From positions 1 to 32,405 of the forward strand of contig CALLBC010000210.1 of the NCBI GenBank assembly GCA_938001965.1: a DNA stretch of 32,405 nucleotides, given 5' to 3'. This document shows positions 6,328-26,936 of the stretch, piece after piece (within the stretch, counting starts at the first letter, position 1; each line of letters starts with the position of its first letter). The translations under genes and the position numbers were made by a program. Origin of the DNA: an uncultured Bdellovibrionales bacterium (GTDB taxonomy: Bacteria > Bdellovibrionota > Bdellovibrionia > Bdellovibrionales > UBA1609). The notes below the pieces were generated by a model. The model worked only from the letters and a program-made list of their open reading frames with translations, was not told where the DNA came from and searched no databases.

Positions 6328-6348
6328 GTGAGCAAGTGAGTGATAATA

Positions 6349-6526
6349 GGGTGTGTTGACGTTTCATCTAGTTAGTTAAGAGACTAGATTGGTTTAGATT
6401 TGAGTTGAGGTTAAAATTTTAACCGGAGCTGTGGCAAAGCCACTGTGAGGATTAAACTTTTAAACTCGACGAAGAAGATAAGCCTAGATAGGCTTTTAAA
6501 TGACTAGATGAAACGTCAACACACCC
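6349..6526. repeat. Nested hairpin element A (24-bp perfect terminal inverted repeat)
   Basis: The outer arms 6349-6372 and 6503-6526 are perfect reverse complements over 24 bp (GGGTGTGTTGACGTTTCATC... on the left). Inside are a 16-bp palindrome GGTTAAAATTTTAACC (6409-6424), a hairpin GTGGC-AAA-GCCAC (6431-6443) and a hairpin AAGCCTA-GA-TAGGCTT (6480-6495). The 6411-6424 strand can also pair imperfectly with about 6449-6463. The element fills the miaA-yicC gap and ends just upstream of the yicC ribosome binding site. There is no coding potential. It resembles a non-autonomous, MITE-like insertion or a structured leader, and a decayed relative lies at 8545-8623. Confidence 0.85.
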
Positions 6527-6547
6527 AAATTAAAAGGAAAACTAACT

Positions 6548-7432
6548 ATGTTAAGTATGACCGGATTCGGTGTAAATAAATCTAAATTAACTTCTGGTGA
6601 ACTGGTGGTTCAAGTGAAGTCTGTGAATTCGAGATTTTTAGATTTAAAAATTCATATCCCTCGTGAATACTCTCTATGGGAAAAAGAGGTGCGCGATATA
6701 GTCAAAAAAAATATTAGTCGTGGAACAGTTGAGGTCTATTGTGCCAGAAAATTTAAAAACAATACTTCAAGAACAACCATTAACTCTGATATTGAGTTAG
6801 GACGTAAGTGGCTTAAAGAGTATAAAAAACTAAGCAAGGGTTTAAAGTTAAATAACAGTGAAGATCCAAGTTTGATTGAAATACTTAAATCAGTGCCTGT
6901 TTTGTCCACTGGTGAGAATAAAGATGTAAATCCAGCAGAGAAAAAAGCATTTTTTAAAAGCTTAGATATGGCTATAAAAGGCTGTTTAGGTGAAAGAAAA
7001 CGAGAGGGAATGGCCTTAAAAAAGTCTTTCAATGGGGCTTTAATGTCCTTAAGTAAAGAGCTAAATAGTATTGAAAAAAATAGGAAAAAGGCGAATGATG
7101 AAATTTTAAAGCGTTGGAAGTCTAAACTAGATCGCTTTAAAAATGAAAAAAACTTGGATTCTGGAAGGCTGGCTCAAGAGGCTTCAGTTTTGATTGAAAA
7201 GTCTGATATTAATGAAGAGGTCATTCGTTTAAAAGAGCATATAAGTAATTGTAAAAAGTTATTATCTGCCAAAGGGCGTTTAGGTAAAAAACTAGAGTTT
7301 TATTCTCAAGAGTTGTTGCGCGAAATTAATACTATTGGTTCAAAGTCTCAAATTGTGGAGTTGACGAGCTCAGTGGTAAATGCAAAAACCATAATAGAAC
7401 AAATTAGAGAACAGGTGCAAAACATAGAATGA
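6548..7432 (+). CDS. yicC: YicC/YloC family endoribonuclease
   Basis: 294 aa, the usual size for this family. The N-terminus MLSMTGFG and the GELVVQVKSVNSRFLDLKIH segment are the hallmark of the YicC-like N-terminal domain. The C-terminal DUF1732 domain ends in QELLREINTIGSKSQ...SSVVNAKTIIEQIREQVQNIE, highly typical. Family members in E. coli and Bacillus have been reported as endoribonucleases acting on RNA; the natural targets here are unknown. AAAGGAAA at 6533-6540 is a good ribosome binding site for the ATG. The 3' end overlaps gmk through ATGA, so the two are coupled. Placement upstream of gmk and rpoZ is a widely conserved order. Its leader carries hairpin element A, which could affect transcript stability or termination; that is inference. 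Confidence 0.93.
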   Translation: MLSMTGFGVNKSKLTSGELVVQVKSVNSRFLDLKIHIPREYSLWEKEVRDIVKKNISRGTVEVYCARKFKNNTSRTTINSDIELGRKWLKEYKKLSKGLKLNNSEDPSLIEILKSVPVLSTGENKDVNPAEKKAFFKSLDMAIKGCLGERKREGMALKKSFNGALMSLSKELNSIEKNRKKANDEILKRWKSKLDRFKNEKNLDSGRLAQEASVLIEKSDINEEVIRLKEHISNCKKLLSAKGRLGKKLEFYSQELLREINTIGSKSQIVELTSSVVNAKTIIEQIREQVQNIE

Positions 7433-18517: not shown

Positions 18518-19471
18518 CTAATTACCTGTAGGCGTGGTTGGGGTTGTTGGAGCTCCGGGAGTTTGTGTCCCAGCTTCTTTAGCTTTTGCAGCGGCAACTT
18601 CCTTGTCTTTTTTAATATTATTTGGAAAACGGATGGGTGCTACAACGGTCATAGCAAAGGTCTTTGCTTTTTTTCTTTTATCTACTTTTTGCTTAACACC
18701 TAAAGTGACCTCTACTGCAAGAGGGAAGGTGTCTTTAGTTATGTCGTCACCAGATTCATCAGTGACCCAGGCCTTTCTCCATTCACCCTCATCGAGACCC
18801 ACACCAATATAGCGTAAGTCAAACTTATCAACATTTTCTACTAAAACAGTTTTGGAGCCATCTTTTTTAACATCATCGTCAATATAGGCAATTGTTCGGC
18901 GCCATAAACATTTGCTCACACTCTTTCTAGTTTTTCTAGATTTACAACTATCAATATAGTAGCCAACCTCAGCGAGATTGCCCTCAGGAATATCAACTTG
19001 AGCCCGTATATTACTTGAGGAAGTGAAGTGTAGTGAGTCGCTCTCACCTAAGAAATGAGTTAAGCTAGTTTGCTTTTTTTCTTTAAACTTTGCTTTCATT
19101 TCTGTGCATGGGTTATTGGCTGCCCCTGTGGCCGCCGAACCTGTATTGGCGCCACCGCCTGTTGTTGAGCCGGGTGCTGTTGGAGTTTTTGGCTTGTTAT
19201 TCTTTTCGCAGTTAGCGATTCGTTCTTTTTGAGTTTCATTATAGAGCTCAGCATGGAAGTCATAATAGTTAAAGGCTCGCTCAATATCCCGTTTCATAAC
19301 TGATAGAGCATCACGCACAAGGGATTGTCGATCAATTTTATGTTGAATTTGTTTTTTTGAACGCATAGAACTTTGAATAGATTTGGAAGATGCCAAAGCT
19401 AAAATGGCCAATAGTGCTAAGGCAATAATTGTTTCTAATAATGTAAATCCATTATTGGTGTTTAATTTCAT
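18518..19471 (-). CDS. gspJ: Minor pseudopilin GspJ
   Basis: 317 aa, long for GspJ (often about 200). The prepilin peptidase site is NNG-FTLLETIIALALLAI, with Gly(-1), Phe1 and Glu5. The globular domain has AFNYYDFHAEL, YIDSCKSRK and VDKFDLRYIGVG..GEWRKAW, matching the GspJ pattern near the end. Extra length comes from low-complexity insertions: a Gly/Ala/Thr stretch (TAPGSTTGGGANTGSAATG, about 95-115) and a Pro/Thr tail (GAPTTPTTPTGN). The start codon shares one base with the gspI stop. With I and K it forms the pseudopilus tip. Five or so cysteines are present, so disulfides are plausible. Confidence 0.88.
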   Translation of the reverse strand: MKLNTNNGFTLLETIIALALLAILALASSKSIQSSMRSKKQIQHKIDRQSLVRDALSVMKRDIERAFNYYDFHAELYNETQKERIANCEKNNKPKTPTAPGSTTGGGANTGSAATGAANNPCTEMKAKFKEKKQTSLTHFLGESDSLHFTSSSNIRAQVDIPEGNLAEVGYYIDSCKSRKTRKSVSKCLWRRTIAYIDDDVKKDGSKTVLVENVDKFDLRYIGVGLDEGEWRKAWVTDESGDDITKDTFPLAVEVTLGVKQKVDKRKKAKTFAMTVVAPIRFPNNIKKDKEVAAAKAKEAGTQTPGAPTTPTTPTGN

Positions 19472-20013
19472 TAGTTACCACCAAGGCTTCCAGCCAATCC
19501 TGCTAGTGCTCCTAAGTCTAACTCTTTGTCGTAATCAACAAAATAAGTTGTTACTGCATATTTAACTTCTCTTTTTTTAAACTTAACATAGACTGCCACC
19601 TCAACCTCTTTTACCGATTTTGAGATATGCTCACCCATTTGTTTAATAATTGTAAGTAACATTTCATCAGCGCCGCCTTCTTGGCCAATAAGTACAGCAG
19701 ATAGGTCTGGCATTTCAAAGTCTTGGCTGCTCATGGTCCAACGATAATTTGGGAAGCCTTTAAATTTTCCACCATCTTCATCTTTTATTTCTTCGATGGG
19801 CTTATTTAAATACTGAATTTCAATTTCTGTGATTTTTTTTTGTAACAGCTCAGTTACGTTATGATTAATTTGTGCTTTGTTTAAACGAAAGTAGTTTCCG
19901 CTCCACGATGAGGTTAATGTAACAATACATCCGGTTAGGATGAGCATGGCTACCATAACTTCGATTAAGCTAAAGCCATCATTATTTTTAAAAGAATTCT
20001 TCCATAAATTCAT
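19471..20013 (-). CDS. gspI: Minor pseudopilin GspI
   Basis: 180 aa. The type IV prepilin-like leader NNDG-FSLIEVMVAMLILTG has Gly(-1) and Glu5. The following part (LNKAQINHNVTELLQKKITE, YRWTMSSQDFEMPDL, VEVAVYVKFKKREVKYAVTT) has the order expected for GspI, with the W near the middle and a strand pair near the end. GspI starts tip assembly with J and K. The ribosome binding site is poor. The gene is separated from gspH by 222 nt holding long hairpin element B, so translation or message level of I-J-K could differ from H. Confidence 0.87.
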   Translation of the reverse strand: MNLWKNSFKNNDGFSLIEVMVAMLILTGCIVTLTSSWSGNYFRLNKAQINHNVTELLQKKITEIEIQYLNKPIEEIKDEDGGKFKGFPNYRWTMSSQDFEMPDLSAVLIGQEGGADEMLLTIIKQMGEHISKSVKEVEVAVYVKFKKREVKYAVTTYFVDYDKELDLGALAGLAGSLGGN

Positions 20014-20087: not shown

Positions 20088-20231
20088 ACCCACTCCATTT
20101 CAATAATTCCCTAAATTTTAAGAAGCCCAAATTTTATAAAGCGCGCAGTTCTCGCCATAGGCGAGCTGTTCAGAGCACTTTGTGAAATTTGGGCTTCTTA
20201 AAATTTAGGGAAATATTGAAATGGAGTGGGT
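20088..20231. repeat. Long hairpin element B, gspH-gspI gap
   Basis: Arms 20088-20134 and 20185-20231 are reverse complements over 47 bp with a single mismatch (left arm begins ACCCACTCCATTTCAATAAT). The 50-bp centre continues the pairing imperfectly and ends in the apical hairpin CTCGCC-ATA-GGCGAG (20151-20165). The core reads GCGCGCAGTTCT, apical hairpin, AGCTGT, GAGCAC. The same core occurs in reverse orientation in element C, with different arms. The right arm ends 5 nt from the gspH stop, so the whole structure is in the gsp transcript. Confidence 0.93.
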
Positions 20232-20235
20232 ATCG

Positions 20236-20859
20236 CTAGTTTTCATCAAATTCGTCTAATGCTACGTATTCGGTATTAATAAATGAGCGGCCGGTGAGGG
20301 GGTGTATACTCACTGTCCACCTTAGCTTGTCATCATATTTTAAATGTATAGCGGCTTCATCAACAAAGCCTTCTGGACGAAAATGGATATAAACTATACC
20401 ACTTGAAATGGGTTCTCCAAGTTGTTTAACCTCAACATCTTCAAAGAATATACTGCCAGGGAGTTTCTTGGCCTTTTTGCCAAAGCGAGCATCAGGTGTA
20501 AAATCGCTGGTTTTTTCTTCTTTTCCCTTTTTGTCTTTTTTAAATGGTGAGGTGAGTGAACCCTTAGTGGCAATTCGACTTCCAGAAGCACTCTCAACCC
20601 AGTACTTGTGACTTTTGCGACTGGCCTCGCCCCCTTCCCCCATATCAATCACTAATCGAAAAGTGGAGTTAGTCAGTTTTGCACGACTATGCAGGTCTCT
20701 AGTTAAAACGCCAAACTGTCTCACGGCTTCTTTGATTTCAGAGTTGGTGTTTCTTACTTTTGAGAAAAATAATGTTGCACTTCCGCCAATAATTAACACA
20801 ACAATCATGATCTCCATAAGTGTCATACCAGAATTATTTTTTAATAAGTTTTTAGTCAT
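20236..20859 (-). CDS. gspH: Minor pseudopilin GspH
   Basis: 207 aa. The prepilin signal is NNSG-MTLMEIMIVVLIIGG, with Gly(-1), Met1 and Glu5. The next helix (VRQFGVLTRDLHSRAKLTNS) and the strand TFRLVIDMG fit GspH, which joins the major fibre to the I-J-K tip. A charged Lys/Gly segment (KKDKKGKEEK, about 108-120) and the SGIVYIHFRPEGFVDEAAIH strand pair follow. GGAG lies 10 nt before the ATG. The gene follows a terminator-like hairpin after gspG and is itself followed by hairpin element B. Confidence 0.87.
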   Translation of the reverse strand: MTKNLLKNNSGMTLMEIMIVVLIIGGSATLFFSKVRNTNSEIKEAVRQFGVLTRDLHSRAKLTNSTFRLVIDMGEGGEASRKSHKYWVESASGSRIATKGSLTSPFKKDKKGKEEKTSDFTPDARFGKKAKKLPGSIFFEDVEVKQLGEPISSGIVYIHFRPEGFVDEAAIHLKYDDKLRWTVSIHPLTGRSFINTEYVALDEFDEN

Positions 20860-20880
20860 TATTATTTATCTCCAAAGTAA

Positions 20881-20914
20881 AAAAAAAGCGAAGACCCTTG
20901 CCCTCGCTTTTTTT
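20881..20914 (-). terminator. Intra-operon terminator/attenuator after gspG
   Basis: AGCGA pairs with TCGCT around a 12-base loop, with an A/T tract of about seven on each side, 18 nt beyond the gspG stop in the - direction. It probably stops a fraction of transcripts, so major pseudopilin message exceeds that of H-N. Confidence 0.75.
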
Positions 20915-20932
20915 GTTATAAATTTTTTTCAT

Positions 20933-21379
20933 TTACTCGTCATCGCCATCTTCTTCAGGGAAAACAATATCTTTATCAAAGCCTTCTCCACCTTCACTTT
21001 TATCAGCACCCAGTGATGTTATTGTGTATGATCCACCACTAGCTTCATATTCGTAGTCTGATCCCCAAGGATCTTTTTTAAGTTTGTAGTAGGCAACCGG
21101 TCCCCAGTTGGAGCAGTTAGAAGGGGCTGTTTCAAGAGCTCCAATCTCAGTAGGGTAGCTGTTACAATCAGCATAATAAGTTTCTAATGCTTTGCCAATT
21201 TCAGCCATACTAATTTTAGCTTGGCTAATTTTTGATTTTTTAAAGTTATCCATAACTTTAGTTCCTAGAGTTGCCATTAAGCCACCTAAGATAACCATAA
21301 CGATCATGATCTCAATAAGTGTCATACCCTTGTTATTATTTAGCATTGGAATTTTGATTTTTAGTATTCTTTTCATCAT
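20933..21379 (-). CDS. gspG: Major pseudopilin GspG
   Basis: 148 aa, usual size. The leader and cleavage site are NNNKG-MTLIEIMIVMVILGG, with Gly(-1) and Glu5, followed by the long helix MATLGTKVMDNFKKSKISQA. The globular domain shows the GspG signature: ALETYYADCNSYPTEIGAL and DPWGSDYEYE, then ITSLGADKSEGGEGFDKDI, the calcium-binding loop region. GspG polymerises into the pseudopilus that pushes substrates through GspD. GGAGG lies 9 nt upstream of the first ATG. Two Cys (YADCN, PSNCSNW) could make a disulfide. A terminator directly after the gene fits its role as the most abundant component. Confidence 0.96.
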   Translation of the reverse strand: MMKRILKIKIPMLNNNKGMTLIEIMIVMVILGGLMATLGTKVMDNFKKSKISQAKISMAEIGKALETYYADCNSYPTEIGALETAPSNCSNWGPVAYYKLKKDPWGSDYEYEASGGSYTITSLGADKSEGGEGFDKDIVFPEEDGDDE

Positions 21380-21426
21380 TAATATTTGCCTCCATAAAAA
21401 TAATTAATTTTAAAAAATAAAATAAG

Positions 21427-22647
21427 TTAAGTACCCATATTCATCATATCGAATAATGGTACCATGATAGCCACAACTATGGATCCAATAACGCCACCCA
21501 TTACGACTATCATCACGGGTTCCATTAAAGCTGTTAACCCATCCACTTCAGTATTGACCTGGAAGTCATAGGCTTTACTGACCTGTTCAAGCATGCTTTC
21601 TAGTTCGCCTGTTTTTTCACCAATACTGATCATATGTATAACCATTGGTGGAAATTGACCTGACCTCTTCAAAGGTCCAGCAATAGATTCACCCTCACTG
21701 ATATTTTCTCTGGCATCATCAATAGCAACGGCTAAAACATCGTTGTTTACAACATTTCTTACAATGTCCATGGCAGCAAGCATTGGCACACCACCATTTA
21801 ACAAAGTAGATAGTGTTTGAGCAAAACGTGACACAGCAACGAGTCGAAGTAGTTTACCCATCACAGGTATTTTTAAAACAATTTTATCCCAAGTTTTTCG
21901 GCCATTAGGGGAGTTTTTCCAGTTTCTAAATATAAAAAAGAGAACAAAGGTGGCAATAATAATGACTGGCCAGTACTCAATGACAATGTCACTCAAGTCT
22001 ATAATTAAAAGAGTGAACCACGGCAAAATCAAATCTTCACTGGCTTCAAAGATTTCAACCATCTTTGGGACAACATAGGTGAATACAACACCTAGAATTG
22101 CAATGGTTACAACAATCATAATCAAAGGGTAAATCATGGCTGATTTAACTTTACTTTGAAGTTCGTTGGCTGACTCTGTGAATTCGGCCAATCGTATGAG
22201 GATTGTATCTAGCGTACCTGACATTTCTCCAGCTTCAGTCATTGATAAAAATATTATGTCAAAGGTTTTAGGGTACTTAGCCATTGATTTATAAAGAGGC
22301 TGACCTTCATTAACCATGTTTTTAATTTCAGCCATGGTTTCAGCTAAGGACTCATTTTCTACCTGTTCACTCACGGCGGCCAATGAATCTACTAGAGGAA
22401 TGTTGGCTTTTAAAAGTGTAGCTAACTGCCTTGTCATCATGGCAAGATCTTTCACATTTACTTTTCTAGAGGCATTTACTTTTTTATTTTTTTTGCCCTT
22501 GTTGCCTTTTGAACGATCTTTTAGGGCCTGTACATACACGCCCTGTTTTTTTAAACGGGTTTTTGCCGCGCGTACATTTTCGGCGTCAATTGTTCCTTTA
22601 ACATTAGAGCCTTTTTTATTAAGCCCTTTGTATTCAAACATTGGCAT
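21427..22647 (-). CDS. gspF: Type II secretion inner-membrane platform protein GspF
   Basis: 406 aa, exact family length. It starts MPMFEYKGLNKKGSNVKGTI, the typical PilC/GspF opening, so ATG 22647 is preferred over ATG 22641. Two T2SSF domains are visible: about 70-195 (MTRQLATLLKANIPLVDSL, FLSMTEAGEMSGTLD) and about 270-395 (FAQTLSTLLNGGVPMLAAM, MISIGEKTGELESMLEQVS). Membrane helices follow each domain (MIYPLIMIVVTIAILGVVFT; VIIIATFVLFFIF; MIVVMGGVIGSIVVAIMVPL). It converts GspE ATPase motion into pseudopilus growth. It starts 2 nt after the gspE stop, so the two are tightly coupled. Confidence 0.97.
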   Translation of the reverse strand: MPMFEYKGLNKKGSNVKGTIDAENVRAAKTRLKKQGVYVQALKDRSKGNKGKKNKKVNASRKVNVKDLAMMTRQLATLLKANIPLVDSLAAVSEQVENESLAETMAEIKNMVNEGQPLYKSMAKYPKTFDIIFLSMTEAGEMSGTLDTILIRLAEFTESANELQSKVKSAMIYPLIMIVVTIAILGVVFTYVVPKMVEIFEASEDLILPWFTLLIIDLSDIVIEYWPVIIIATFVLFFIFRNWKNSPNGRKTWDKIVLKIPVMGKLLRLVAVSRFAQTLSTLLNGGVPMLAAMDIVRNVVNNDVLAVAIDDARENISEGESIAGPLKRSGQFPPMVIHMISIGEKTGELESMLEQVSKAYDFQVNTEVDGLTALMEPVMIVVMGGVIGSIVVAIMVPLFDMMNMGT

Positions 22648-22649
22648 AA

Positions 22650-24341
22650 TTACTGATCCACTTGTGTATTAGATAAAACTTCTTCAATTGATGTTAAGCC
22701 ACTTAAAACTTTTTGTATTCCATGATCTCTGAATGGAACCATTCCTTCAAGCAGTGCTTGTTTTTTTATTTGCGAACCATCAGCTCGTTGCATAATTAAA
22801 GTTCTGATCGGCTCAGTAACAAGTAGTAGCTCTTGAATGATGGTTCGACCAGAGTAGCCCTTGTGATTGCATTCATTACAACCCACAGGCTTATGAATAT
22901 TGGTGCCCTTGATTTGATCAGCTGTTAGCTCAAGGCTGTTAAGCTCAATTTCTGTTGGAACATGTGGTTCTTTACAGTGTGGGCATAATAAACGTATAAG
23001 TCTTTGTGCCACAATACCTAAAAGTGAGGTGGCAATTAAAAATGGCTCACACCCCATATCAATAAGTCTTGGGAATACACCAGAGGAGTCATTGGTATGC
23101 AGTGTAGACAACACTAAGTGACCAGTTAGAGAGGCGTTAATGGCAATCTCTGCAGTTTCTAAATCACGAATCTCCCCAAGCATAATAACATTGGGATCTT
23201 GACGTAGTATTGCTTTTAAACCTTTGGCAAATGTTAAGCCAATTTTTGCATTGGCTTGGATTTGTCCAACGCCGTGAATTCTTTGTTCCACCGGGTCTTC
23301 AACAGTAATAATATTTTTATCAATAGTATTAATTTTAGAAATTGATGAATACAAAGTAGTGGACTTACCACTACCTGTTGGGCCGGTAACAAGAAAGATT
23401 CCATATGTTTTTGTTAATATATCATCAATTTGAGCTAAGCTTTTTGCAGAGAAACCCAATTGATTTAAATCTAAGATTACATTTGATCTATCCTGTAAAC
23501 GCATAACAATACGCTCACCGTGAGAAGTGGGAACAGTACTTAAACGAACATCAATATCTTTGCCAGCAAGTTTTAAAGGAATACGACCATCTTGAGGTAA
23601 ACGTTTTTCAGCAATATTTAAATTGGCCATAACTTTAATACGAGAGGTGATTGCGTTTTGAAGCTTTTTAGGTGGTTTGAAAACATCAAATAAAATACCA
23701 TCAGTTCTAAAGCGCACAACCATGTCTTTTTCATAGGGCTCAATATGTATATCAGAGGCCTTTTCTTTTACGGCTCTAAACAATAGACGGTTTACTAGCT
23801 TGATTACTGGTGCATCATCATCACCAGCTTCAAGTAAATCAATAACTGGATCATCAAGGTCCATGTCATCTTCTTCGATATCATCTAAGCCTTCAAGGGC
23901 AGCAGTGCTTTTTTCGTAAACCTTATTTATGGCTTCATGCATACGAATACTTGTTGTGATTAAACTCTTAACAGGCTTGCCAAATAAAACTCTTAAGTCA
24001 TCTAAGGCTTTGTGATTTAGCGGGTTACTGGTTAACACAAGCATATGGTCTTTTTCTTCTTTAAAGGGTAAAACTTCATGGTTTTTTGAGTAGTTAATTG
24101 GAATGTTGCGAACTAAGTCAGCTAATATATCATTTGATGGAATATCTTTAATAAAGTCCACATTCATTAACTCACAAAGATCATTTAAGGCGTCATCAAT
24201 GCTGCTAAAACTTTTTTCTGTTAAGAGCTCTCTAAATTTTTCACCCTCTTCAGTTTTTAAGTCTAAGATAGAACTGAGCTGTTCTTTGTTGAGCTTAGTT
24301 CCTTTGACGATGAGAGTTTCAAATGTAGTCTTACTTGCCAT
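22650..24341 (-). CDS. gspE: Type II secretion assembly ATPase GspE
   Basis: 563 aa. An N-terminal MshEN/GspE-N region (about 1-160; LPFKEEKDHMLVLTSNPLN is typical) precedes the catalytic domain. That domain has FRTDGILFDVF, GPTGSGKSTT (Walker A, from about 320), an Asp box near ITVEDPVEQRI, GEIRDLETAEIA (Walker B region) and LVLSTLHTND (His box). A tetracysteine zinc motif sits at CPHC (about 451) and CNEC (about 487), usual for GspE/PilB. ATP hydrolysis powers pseudopilus assembly from the cytoplasm. The ATG at 24341 has only a weak ribosome binding site. It leads the E-to-N unit, and its promoter must lie between it and the gspD terminator, where hairpin element C also sits. Confidence 0.97.
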   Translation of the reverse strand: MASKTTFETLIVKGTKLNKEQLSSILDLKTEEGEKFRELLTEKSFSSIDDALNDLCELMNVDFIKDIPSNDILADLVRNIPINYSKNHEVLPFKEEKDHMLVLTSNPLNHKALDDLRVLFGKPVKSLITTSIRMHEAINKVYEKSTAALEGLDDIEEDDMDLDDPVIDLLEAGDDDAPVIKLVNRLLFRAVKEKASDIHIEPYEKDMVVRFRTDGILFDVFKPPKKLQNAITSRIKVMANLNIAEKRLPQDGRIPLKLAGKDIDVRLSTVPTSHGERIVMRLQDRSNVILDLNQLGFSAKSLAQIDDILTKTYGIFLVTGPTGSGKSTTLYSSISKINTIDKNIITVEDPVEQRIHGVGQIQANAKIGLTFAKGLKAILRQDPNVIMLGEIRDLETAEIAINASLTGHLVLSTLHTNDSSGVFPRLIDMGCEPFLIATSLLGIVAQRLIRLLCPHCKEPHVPTEIELNSLELTADQIKGTNIHKPVGCNECNHKGYSGRTIIQELLLVTEPIRTLIMQRADGSQIKKQALLEGMVPFRDHGIQKVLSGLTSIEEVLSNTQVDQ

Positions 24342-24420
24342 AACTAATATGTTAAGGGCTAAGAGTAGAAAAAGCTAGGGTTTTTAAGTCATTTATAGGT
24401 AAGTAATTGGTCAAAAATGC

Positions 24421-24537
24421 AACTAATAAACTCTTGCCCGGGACTCAGTTTTATTGCCCGTGCTCAGACAGCTGCCCTTGTCGGGCAGAACTGCGCGCGG
24501 ACAATAAAACTGAGTCCCGGGCAAGAGTTTATTAGTT
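24421..24537. repeat. Long hairpin element C, gspD-gspE gap
   Basis: Arms 24421-24456 and 24502-24537 are perfect reverse complements over 36 bp (left arm begins AACTAATAAACTCTTGCCCG). The 45-bp centre folds further to the apical hairpin CTGCCC-TTGTC-GGGCAG (24472-24488). Read on the - strand, the core is GCGCGCAGTTCT, apical stem, AGCTGT, GAGCAC, the same as element B. The arms share no evident sequence with those of B. Confidence 0.94.
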
Positions 24538-24704: not shown

Positions 24705-26936
24705 TTAAAATGATTCAACGGCTGGCTCTTCAACCTCTGGATTAAAGTCCTGCTCCAGTGCGTCTTCAATATCTAGATCAACTTCTGGTTTAGAGCTTCG
24801 TCTTGAAGCTTTTCTCGGTAGGCTATCAATGTTGTAACCATGGGGATCTTTACCGTTCATGTAGCTTTGAATAAAATCAATTCTTTCATTAATTTTGTTA
24901 TTAACAATATCAGCGCCGTCATCAGCATTCCTTAATATTTTAGGGGTGATAAACATAACAAGGTTTAGTTTAGATTTTGATGACTTAGTGCTTTTAAATA
25001 GCCATCCTAATATTGGAATGTCGCCAAGGATGGGAACTTTTGTCATAGACTCCTCTTCCGTATCCTGCATAAGACCACCAATAACGGCAGTGTCACCGCT
25101 ATCCACAGATATTCTTGTTTTAACATTTCGATCATTAGTTGTGGCCGTTGCACCTTGCTGTGAGTTTAGTACTTGTGTGCTTGCAAGTTGTTTAATTTTT
25201 TGTTCGATCTCCATTTGTACTTGATCTGTGTCTGGGCTGATTTGTGGTTTAATAGTTAAGTCAATAGTGGCCTCTTTAAAAATAGGAGCAGATGTTGTTC
25301 CTGTTGTGCTAACAGTGTTTGATGAACCAACGGGGATTGTTTGTCCCACAGCTATATTTGCTTCTTCATTGTCCATAACAGTGATTTGTGGGCTGGATAA
25401 AATATTTCCATTATTATTAGTTTTAATAAAGTTAACTAAACCAGTGAGGCTTTTAACTTCAATATTGTCGCCTCCAGCCGGGTTAGGGATTGAAACACTT
25501 TTACCAGCTCCAAAGCCTAATATTGCTCCAGCACCACCAAGAGGGCTTAAAAGACTGGTGATGTTTTCCAGTCCGCCAAAGCCAATTCTGCCAAGTCCGC
25601 CAGTTCCTTCTTTAAATTTATAGTAACTAATACCCCAGTTATTTTGTTTCTCAGCTCTCATTTCCATAATGATTGCTTTTACAAAAACTTGATCTCTTGG
25701 GATGTCAATTTTAGCTAGTAAGCCTTTCATTACTTCATAGTCTTGGCGACTGGCTGTAACGATTAAGCTATTAGTTGTTTCATCAGCTGTTACTTTTACT
25801 TCGCCGCCAAAAAGGGAGGTGCCGCCAGCTGATTTTGCGGCAGATGAAGTGCTGCCTGATTTTGGCCTTGGGGTTACGCCACTGCCACCAGTTTTTGCGT
25901 CATTTGCTTTTTTAGAGTCAGTGGCCACGCCATTAATTACGTTGGCAATCTTTTCAGCTACGCCGTGGCGGACATAGTAAACATAAACACCGCCAGCATC
26001 TTCTGGGTTTAAGGGAAAATCTAACTTTTTAACTAGAGCTTTAATACGCTTAATACCAGCTTTGTTTCCCATAACCACAATTGAGTTAGTTCTTTCATCA
26101 CTAACAACTAAAGAGTATGACTCAGCACCAGTTTTGCTAGAACCAGATTTTTTTCTTCTAAATCTTGGGACGTTACGTGAGTTTTTACTTTCTCCTTTGT
26201 TAATGATCTGATCAACAAGGGTTTGAATTTCCTTGGCTTTGGCATTGTAAATTCTAATCACAGAGAGCTGTTCTTCGTAACCAGGAACATCTAGTTGGGC
26301 TAAAATTCGGGAGATTCTTTCAATGTTTGAACCAAAGTCAGTAATAATTAAAGAGTTAGTTGGGCCATAGGCCTCTAAGATACCTTGCCTCGATTTTAAA
26401 TACTTTATCTTGCTTGATAAATCTTCAGCTGAAATATATTTTAATTTCACAATACGTGTGATCACTTGGTCAGTATTAGGAAAGTAATCGGTGTAAGTTT
26501 CAATGCTGTCATTTTGGGCGGTGGTCACCTGTCTGATTTTTAAAAAATTACCTGAGGGTACAACAGTTAGATTATTAATTGCTAAAGCCGATAGGAAGGC
26601 TTTATAGGCTTCAGCCACAGTAATTTGCGACGGAGCAATAATTGTGATTTTTCCTCGGCTGGCAGCAGGGTCAACAATAAAGTTTTTACCAGTTAATTTA
26701 CTAATGGCTTTAACAACCTCAGAAATATCGGCATTGGGGTAGTCAAAACTATCAATTAGGTCCGGGAAGTTTTCATTGGTGATATCTTCAGGTTGTGCTT
26801 TTGCAAACTTTTTTCTTGTGGCCTCGTCAATTGGGCTGTCGTTTTGCTCTTGCTGTGCAAAGCTTGAAGAGGCAAAGCAAATAAGCATTACTGCAATAAG
26901 TGACTTTGTTAACCCACAAATTAATTTTTTAGACAT
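24705..26936 (-). CDS. gspD: Type II secretion secretin GspD
   Basis: 743 aa. It has a signal peptide (KSLIAVMLICFASSSFA-Q). The N0 domain is visible at about 58-125 (LIDSFDYPNADISEVVKAIS, GKNFIVDPAASRGKITI). N1-N3 domains follow, with SLVVSDERTNSIVVMGN and ADETTNSLIVTASRQDYEVM marking N2 and N3. The secretin domain (about 420-670) contains GNILSSPQITVMDNEEANI, VGQTIPVGSS, GDTAVIGGLMQD and VPILGDIPILGWLFKSTKS, the strongest family signature. A Ser/Gly-rich linker lies before N3. A charged C-terminal tail (about 680-743) may bind a pilotin; no pilotin gene is adjacent. It forms the outer-membrane channel. AAGGAG sits 7 nt before the ATG; the gene follows gspC by 21 nt. Confidence 0.98.
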   Translation of the reverse strand: MSKKLICGLTKSLIAVMLICFASSSFAQQEQNDSPIDEATRKKFAKAQPEDITNENFPDLIDSFDYPNADISEVVKAISKLTGKNFIVDPAASRGKITIIAPSQITVAEAYKAFLSALAINNLTVVPSGNFLKIRQVTTAQNDSIETYTDYFPNTDQVITRIVKLKYISAEDLSSKIKYLKSRQGILEAYGPTNSLIITDFGSNIERISRILAQLDVPGYEEQLSVIRIYNAKAKEIQTLVDQIINKGESKNSRNVPRFRRKKSGSSKTGAESYSLVVSDERTNSIVVMGNKAGIKRIKALVKKLDFPLNPEDAGGVYVYYVRHGVAEKIANVINGVATDSKKANDAKTGGSGVTPRPKSGSTSSAAKSAGGTSLFGGEVKVTADETTNSLIVTASRQDYEVMKGLLAKIDIPRDQVFVKAIIMEMRAEKQNNWGISYYKFKEGTGGLGRIGFGGLENITSLLSPLGGAGAILGFGAGKSVSIPNPAGGDNIEVKSLTGLVNFIKTNNNGNILSSPQITVMDNEEANIAVGQTIPVGSSNTVSTTGTTSAPIFKEATIDLTIKPQISPDTDQVQMEIEQKIKQLASTQVLNSQQGATATTNDRNVKTRISVDSGDTAVIGGLMQDTEEESMTKVPILGDIPILGWLFKSTKSSKSKLNLVMFITPKILRNADDGADIVNNKINERIDFIQSYMNGKDPHGYNIDSLPRKASRRSSKPEVDLDIEDALEQDFNPEVEEPAVESF

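Follow-up and report, generated by a model that had tools for sequence, protein, structure and literature searches.

ERIC, NEMIS and YPAL elements are palindromic, non-coding repeats of 100-200 bp whose arm sequences are conserved from copy to copy; they can fold as RNA and influence the genes beside them. REP/BIME sequences and the RAYT-mobilised REPINs are multi-copy intergenic palindromes, often arranged as inverted pairs and sometimes placed in operons, that are built on hairpins and for which roles in mRNA stability have been proposed (PMC3733652, PMC2817692). The REPs that carry a CGTC tag occur mostly as dimers and have no known dedicated transposase, and the MITE group of small mobile hairpin elements is covered in the same work (PMC3733652). 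In the mitochondrial DNA of Nematomorpha, coding palindromes have perfectly complementary arms that turn over together, which has been attributed to active maintenance, for example by template switching (PMC6649704). The homogenisation of inverted-repeat arms by template switching is documented in PMC8604942 and discussed in PMC6649704.

Here we describe a family of hairpin repeats that resembles REP/BIME in being intergenic and, in the Coriobacteriia, in forming inverted pairs. However, REP/BIME units measure 20-40 bp, have conserved stems and bear a GTAG or CGTC tag, whereas the arms of the present family are about 20-90 bp long and diverge between copies, their between-copy identity being only about 0.34-0.40 in the larger sets; here it is the apex that is conserved. 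Among the copies listed there is no constant GTAG or CGTC foot, and in some Coriobacteriia arms CGTC is paired inside the arm. Nor did we find the RAYT association of REP/BIME, since no RAYT gene adjoins an element. Divergent arms also set the family apart from ERIC, NEMIS and YPAL, a sequence relation to which was judged only by the absence of Rfam matches. The Nematomorpha palindromes lie in mitochondrial coding sequence and, unlike the present family, are not dispersed copies with a shared core. Like the CGTC-tagged REPs, the present family has no dedicated transposase that we could find, but those REP families have short conserved stems, and the survey of them does not mention Collinsella, Atopobium, Olsenella, Eggerthella or Bdellovibrio (PMC3733652). 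The family appears to be new, being absent from Rfam and from the open-access literature searched. It enlarges the short list of palindromic repeats known in bacteria by an intergenic hairpin family, one that is present in common gut Coriobacteriia (Collinsella, Olsenella), inside the leucine operon.

Two hairpins in a type II secretion cluster

The window, the whole stretch of DNA that was analysed, comprises 32,405 nucleotides from an uncultured Bdellovibrionales bacterium. Two long hairpins, B and C, occupy gaps in its type II secretion (gsp) cluster (Table 1). B is flanked by gspH and a gspI-like minor pilin gene (19471-20013), and C by gspE (22650-24341) and gspD (24705-26936), all on the minus strand; relative to transcription of the cluster, the core strand of C is sense and that of B antisense. 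The arm pairs that are not Watson-Crick are two G.T and one other in B and a single G.T in C. The predicted RNA folds have energies of -99.1 (B) and -93.1 kcal/mol (C), with z = -16.0 and -16.8 against dinucleotide shuffles, none of 200 of which folded as well as either. No T run directly follows either hairpin on either strand, so that the sequence reads as no intrinsic terminator at B or C.

Table 1. Parts of elements B and C, with positions in the window; E-values, from covariance model R1 (25 pairs), are rough
Feature	Position	Strand	Remarks
Element B, 5' arm of core strand	20088..20141	+	Complementary to 20178-20231, 51/54 Watson-Crick; homologous to arms of ~20 other genome copies
Element B, conserved core CGCGCAGTTCTCGCCATAGGCGAGCTGTTCAGAGCA	20142..20177	+	R1 match 20128-20191, E = 1.6e-14; 32 exact-pattern copies in genome
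Element B, 3' arm	20178..20231	+	End 4 bp from gspH stop codon (gspH 20236-20859, - strand)
Element C, 5' arm of core strand	24498..24537	-	Complementary to 24421-24460, 39/40 Watson-Crick
Element C, conserved core CGCGCAGTTCTGCCCGACAAGGGCAGCTGTCTGAGCA	24461..24497	-	R1 match 24447-24511, - strand, E = 1.3e-15
Element C, 3' arm of core strand	24421..24460	-	Pairs with 24498-24537

In opposite orientations, both hairpins contain the core CGCGCAGTTCT-stem-AGCTGT-N2-3-GAGCA, a pattern found twice in the window against 0.00 expected from shuffled windows. The apical stem differs on both sides at once, CTCGCC/GGCGAG in B against CTGCCC/GGGCAG in C. The two hairpins, their shared core and this paired change were thus all found where a preliminary description of the locus had placed them. 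That description had also called the arms private. Between B and C they are indeed unrelated, the local score of 6.0 being no higher than that of shuffled sequences (6.5 +/- 1.4). For B, however, the term goes too far: of 35 other copies in the genome, its arm matches 20 at z > 5. The C arm matches one other copy, weakly (z = 4.8). Judged by arm sequence, B is a member of a conserved-arm subfamily and the arms of C are nearly unique.

A third long hairpin was seen at 6349-6526, ending about 20 bp upstream of an ORF at 6548. It has perfect outer arms of 24 bp around an internally structured interior of 130 nt, and the fold of 6340-6535 reaches -90.8 kcal/mol (z = -14.5). It does not have the B/C core, and its apical motif occurred in 0 of 411 loci.

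Spread, core and placement of the family

B and C belong to a multi-copy family of intergenic hairpin repeats that extends across at least three phyla. In the genome carrying the window (G000), where the reversed control of the exact core pattern gave no match, the R1 model finds 58 copies; it finds 40 in G001 and 20 in G003, both of the same genus, none in the same-genus G002, and 24 in G021. The family occurs in 46 of 149 Coriobacteriia genomes (E <= 1e-6), in a single genome of Omnitrophota (G062, four copies) and, rarely, in Bdellovibrionota (a stricter scan detected it in 3 of 192 genomes). Isolate genomes carry it too, for example Olsenella An188 and Thermophilibacter mediterraneus. Several of the genomes are MAGs, and their contigs frequently break off in these hairpins; the copy numbers are therefore minimum values, and an arm standing alone at a contig end is taken as an assembly effect. 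The covariance-model search of the core that had been proposed in the preliminary description thus returned many further copies, in G000 and elsewhere, with a covarying core and variable, self-complementary arms; neither a lack of further copies nor homology of all arms, the two outcomes it had named as fatal to its variable-arm idea, was found.

A search of Rfam with the window and 12 related loci gave no match at curated thresholds; what scored at all were generic miRNA-hairpin models, well under the gathering score, and a known RNA family was rejected for this reason. Many matches in a pattern scan of genome contigs were due to chance and, having no complementary arms, were dropped; matches in viral contigs likewise lacked such arms and resemble coding sequence. 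No match indicating carriage of B by a plasmid or phage was found. At two G000 loci (L011 and L012, both 1460-1680), the core and the 3' arm are separated by about 110 extra nucleotides with further small hairpins; the two loci share this insert and, with the flanking arms counted in, are 84% identical over 221 nt.

Read along the core strand, the 5' arm is followed by a C.A mismatch, two G-C pairs and an asymmetric loop ending in GA, and then by a CAG/CTG helix, a TT bulge and CT/AG with the variable apical stem. The C.A mismatch is invariant across the model alignment. In that alignment 95.8% of pair cells are standard and 268 cells have changed on both sides, giving a covariation score of 0.754, compared with 0.162 for shuffled and at most 0.175 for slid controls; the slid control is somewhat favourable because the structure was drawn from the same sequences, yet the difference is wide. 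Next to the mismatch, most G003 copies have A-T in place of the G-C pair, again with both sides changed. A T.G (U.G) pair at arm position 5, near the core, recurs in two phyla, and the core strand may therefore still be the strand that is recognised.

Copies in G000 are single, and in Coriobacteriia -/+ pairs occur 60-130 bp apart and wider, including in the leu operon, with the right arms facing outward to the genes. In 20 of 28 G000 copies, with ORFs called mechanically, the gene lying to the right, as read on the core strand, is directed towards the element, usually ending within about 30 bp of it. Gene orientation relative to the elements varies. From the operon positions a role in mRNA is plausible, and the whole family could be an RNA-level element, a hairpin that acts in mRNA on stability, processing or translation and whose covariation arises solely from compensatory mutations under selection for RNA pairing. 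The strong covariation, the stable predicted folds, the conserved U.G pair and the intercistronic positions in the leu and gsp operons, near gene 5' and 3' ends, all point this way; the occurrence of both orientations to transcription, as in B and C, argues against it.

As candidate mobilisers we considered transposases of the RAYT/IS200 type. Genes with the PF01797 domain (IS200/RAYT-type, Y1_Tnp) are absent from the element-bearing genomes G061, G044, G064 and G068 and elsewhere do not lie beside elements, and this candidate was rejected for the missing adjacency and its absence from several carriers. A shared mobilising gene next to the elements was likewise rejected: an all-against-all comparison of neighbours across genomes yielded no recurring gene family, and no transposase was among the neighbours.

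Divergence and pairing of the arms

Beyond arm position 10, 94.3% of 3,266 pairs in 151 copies are Watson-Crick within copies. Between copies, arms are strongly diverged in G000, G021, G003 and a Coriobacteriia/Omnitrophota set, the sets to which the range of about 0.34-0.40 applies; in G001 identity is 0.64, from four copies only. Median arm length is 22-53 bp by genome set, with a range of 18-89.

This divergence is not uniform along the arm. In the main G000 subfamily, between-copy identity is 94% in the core, 93% in the inner 12 positions and 71% at positions 23-34. Positions 13-22 fall to 56% (shuffled 51%), and 98.5% of their pairs are Watson-Crick within copies. In G021, where arms of 29-89 bp have highly diverged middles of about 30-35 bp, class (i) copies are 92% identical in the core, 84% in the outer 38 bp and 61% in the middle (shuffled 55%). 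The arms are thus not simply private; they form a conserved-variable-conserved series in which the variable block is still self-complementary. Drift with correction after insertion alone was rejected as the cause, since the outer part and the core stay similar while the middle saturates; divergence therefore accumulates along propagating lineages or by replacement. In a further G021 hairpin (L359, on C158), arms of about 140 bp share the outer unit GGGACTGACACTTATTCCAGTCC and the core is different; the same unit also occurs as single copies elsewhere in that genome.

Selection on RNA pairing should leave G.U mismatches in excess of A.C. Mismatches beyond position 10 comprise 66 G.T, 53 A.C and 66 others (G.T versus A.C, p = 0.27), counts that are indicative, the copies being related. 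Tolerance of RNA wobble therefore does not explain the pairing, and this missing wobble preference, on either strand, tells against a purely RNA-level element. G003 alone has an excess of G.T in the arms (9:1, p = 0.02), a pattern compatible with selection acting on a single strand and one that counts against the reading favoured below.

Outer ends are conserved inside subfamilies, TTATACCAATT... in G000/G001 and GGTGCCTGACAC... in G021, and not across genomes. Such subfamilies are what might be expected of an ordinary MITE, a remnant of a DNA transposon with terminal inverted repeats that is moved in trans by a DDE transposase, and the elements are small, multi-copy and polymorphic in insertion. 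However, it is the centre, not the ends, that is most conserved and that is common to the phyla, and the neighbour comparison revealed neither a parental transposon nor a consistent flanking gene. We therefore regard an ordinary MITE as very improbable. The variable, self-complementary arms across copies bear out the original view that a simple MITE with uniformly conserved arms does not describe the family.

Same-site comparisons and the origin of the arms

Sites with and without elements were compared in the leu operon of Collinsella. In G065, G066, G067, G131 and G379, which form one clade in the leuC tree (support 0.97; G068 was left out of the tree), an inverted hairpin pair occupies the gap between leuA and leuC; this gap measures only 10 bp in G377, G378 and G068, and 93 bp, with no hairpin, in G115. 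Between leuC and leuD a pair is present in G065, G066 and G067, and the gap is 12-13 bp in G131 and G379. No arm sequence is present in these element-free gaps of 10-13 bp, and the arms therefore arrived, or left, with the element. B is absent from G002 and G003 and C from G002; no arm was seen at the B site of the two former or at the C site of one same-genus genome, although these sites have diverged and are weaker evidence than the leu sites. Insertion polymorphism at the genus level and between Collinsella species shows both gain and loss.

These comparisons bear on the proposal, made in the preliminary description, that the arms arise by snap-back copying, in which insertion of the core copies the adjacent target into an inverted duplicate and one arm is the old flank. 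Arms that are nearly unrelated between copies and complementary within them would be its natural product, and the long G021 arms with their diverged middles would suit it. Yet the element-free sites of close relatives argue against it, as do the armless B and C sites of the relatives. Moreover, the arms of B are homologous to those of about 20 other copies, and therefore travel with the element, and the similar outer 38 bp of class (i) in G021 speak against copying from each new flank. The proposal is consequently not supported, and we consider such a birth of the arms highly unlikely.

Once in place, the hairpins are constrained in situ: between G131 and G379 they show 0 differences in 165 positions, against 9 in 97 in the rest of the gap (Fisher p = 1e-4). 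Among G065, G066 and G067, whose leuC genes are about 96% identical, one hairpin has undergone a concerted change of 6-7 bp in both arms, in blocks and not pair by pair in G067; two have been replaced whole, and one combines a new 5' arm with the old 3' arm. In other Coriobacteriia, too, leuC and leuD are preceded by elements, among which there are additional arm families as well as single changes that have been compensated. A hairpin pair at leuC-leuD is also present in a genome that is more distant. The constraint in situ is what an RNA-level element would predict, but changing both arms in blocks is not, and taking all the evidence together we judge that an explanation by RNA pairing alone is rather unlikely.

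On balance we think it probable, though far from certain, that this is an intergenic hairpin repeat of the REP/BIME/ERIC kind in which the fold and a small core are selected and the arms, held complementary, change together, likely through template switching. Such an element would spread between sites and between distant bacteria as those repeats do. Fold and core would be what is recognised or selected, the arms needing only to be complementary, and selection against broken hairpins would keep them nearly fixed at a given site. Arm sequence would then change mainly by events that strike both arms together, most likely template switching within the hairpin during replication (quasipalindrome correction) and exchange for another copy. 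From the patterns described, we infer that template switching accounts most economically for the concerted arms; strong selection together with ectopic recombination could give the same picture. From its intercistronic position the hairpin might influence mRNA stability or processing, and its mobility may be based on structure. More tentatively, the family may be a selfish or domesticated element that inherits its fold and not its sequence: a conserved apical core would carry arms that template switching, within a copy or from one copy to another, rewrites in blocks on the two sides together, and the element would have reached at least three phyla with no transposase of its own; we would put this forward as a possibility, not as an expectation. 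The leu sites offer a natural experiment on palindrome evolution: at one and the same site, close species have hairpins that are intact, hairpins changed in concerted blocks, and an intermediate in which half has changed, and with such a series template switching and compensatory selection can be tested against each other directly.

Three further sites were noted. Upstream of leuD in Thermophilibacter provencensis (L115), the 3' arm alone is left and the 5' arm and core are gone, probably as a deletion derivative. Where other Collinsella have the two hairpins between leuC and leuD, G378 and G377 (L387 and L389) have another short repeat, CCATTTGGGGACGTGTTCGTTTTAACCCAT. In G003 (L184; C29, 83200-87900), the gap that corresponds to the site of element C is about 4.2 kb long and holds four ORFs, which resemble an ABC transporter ATPase, two permease-like proteins and one further protein.
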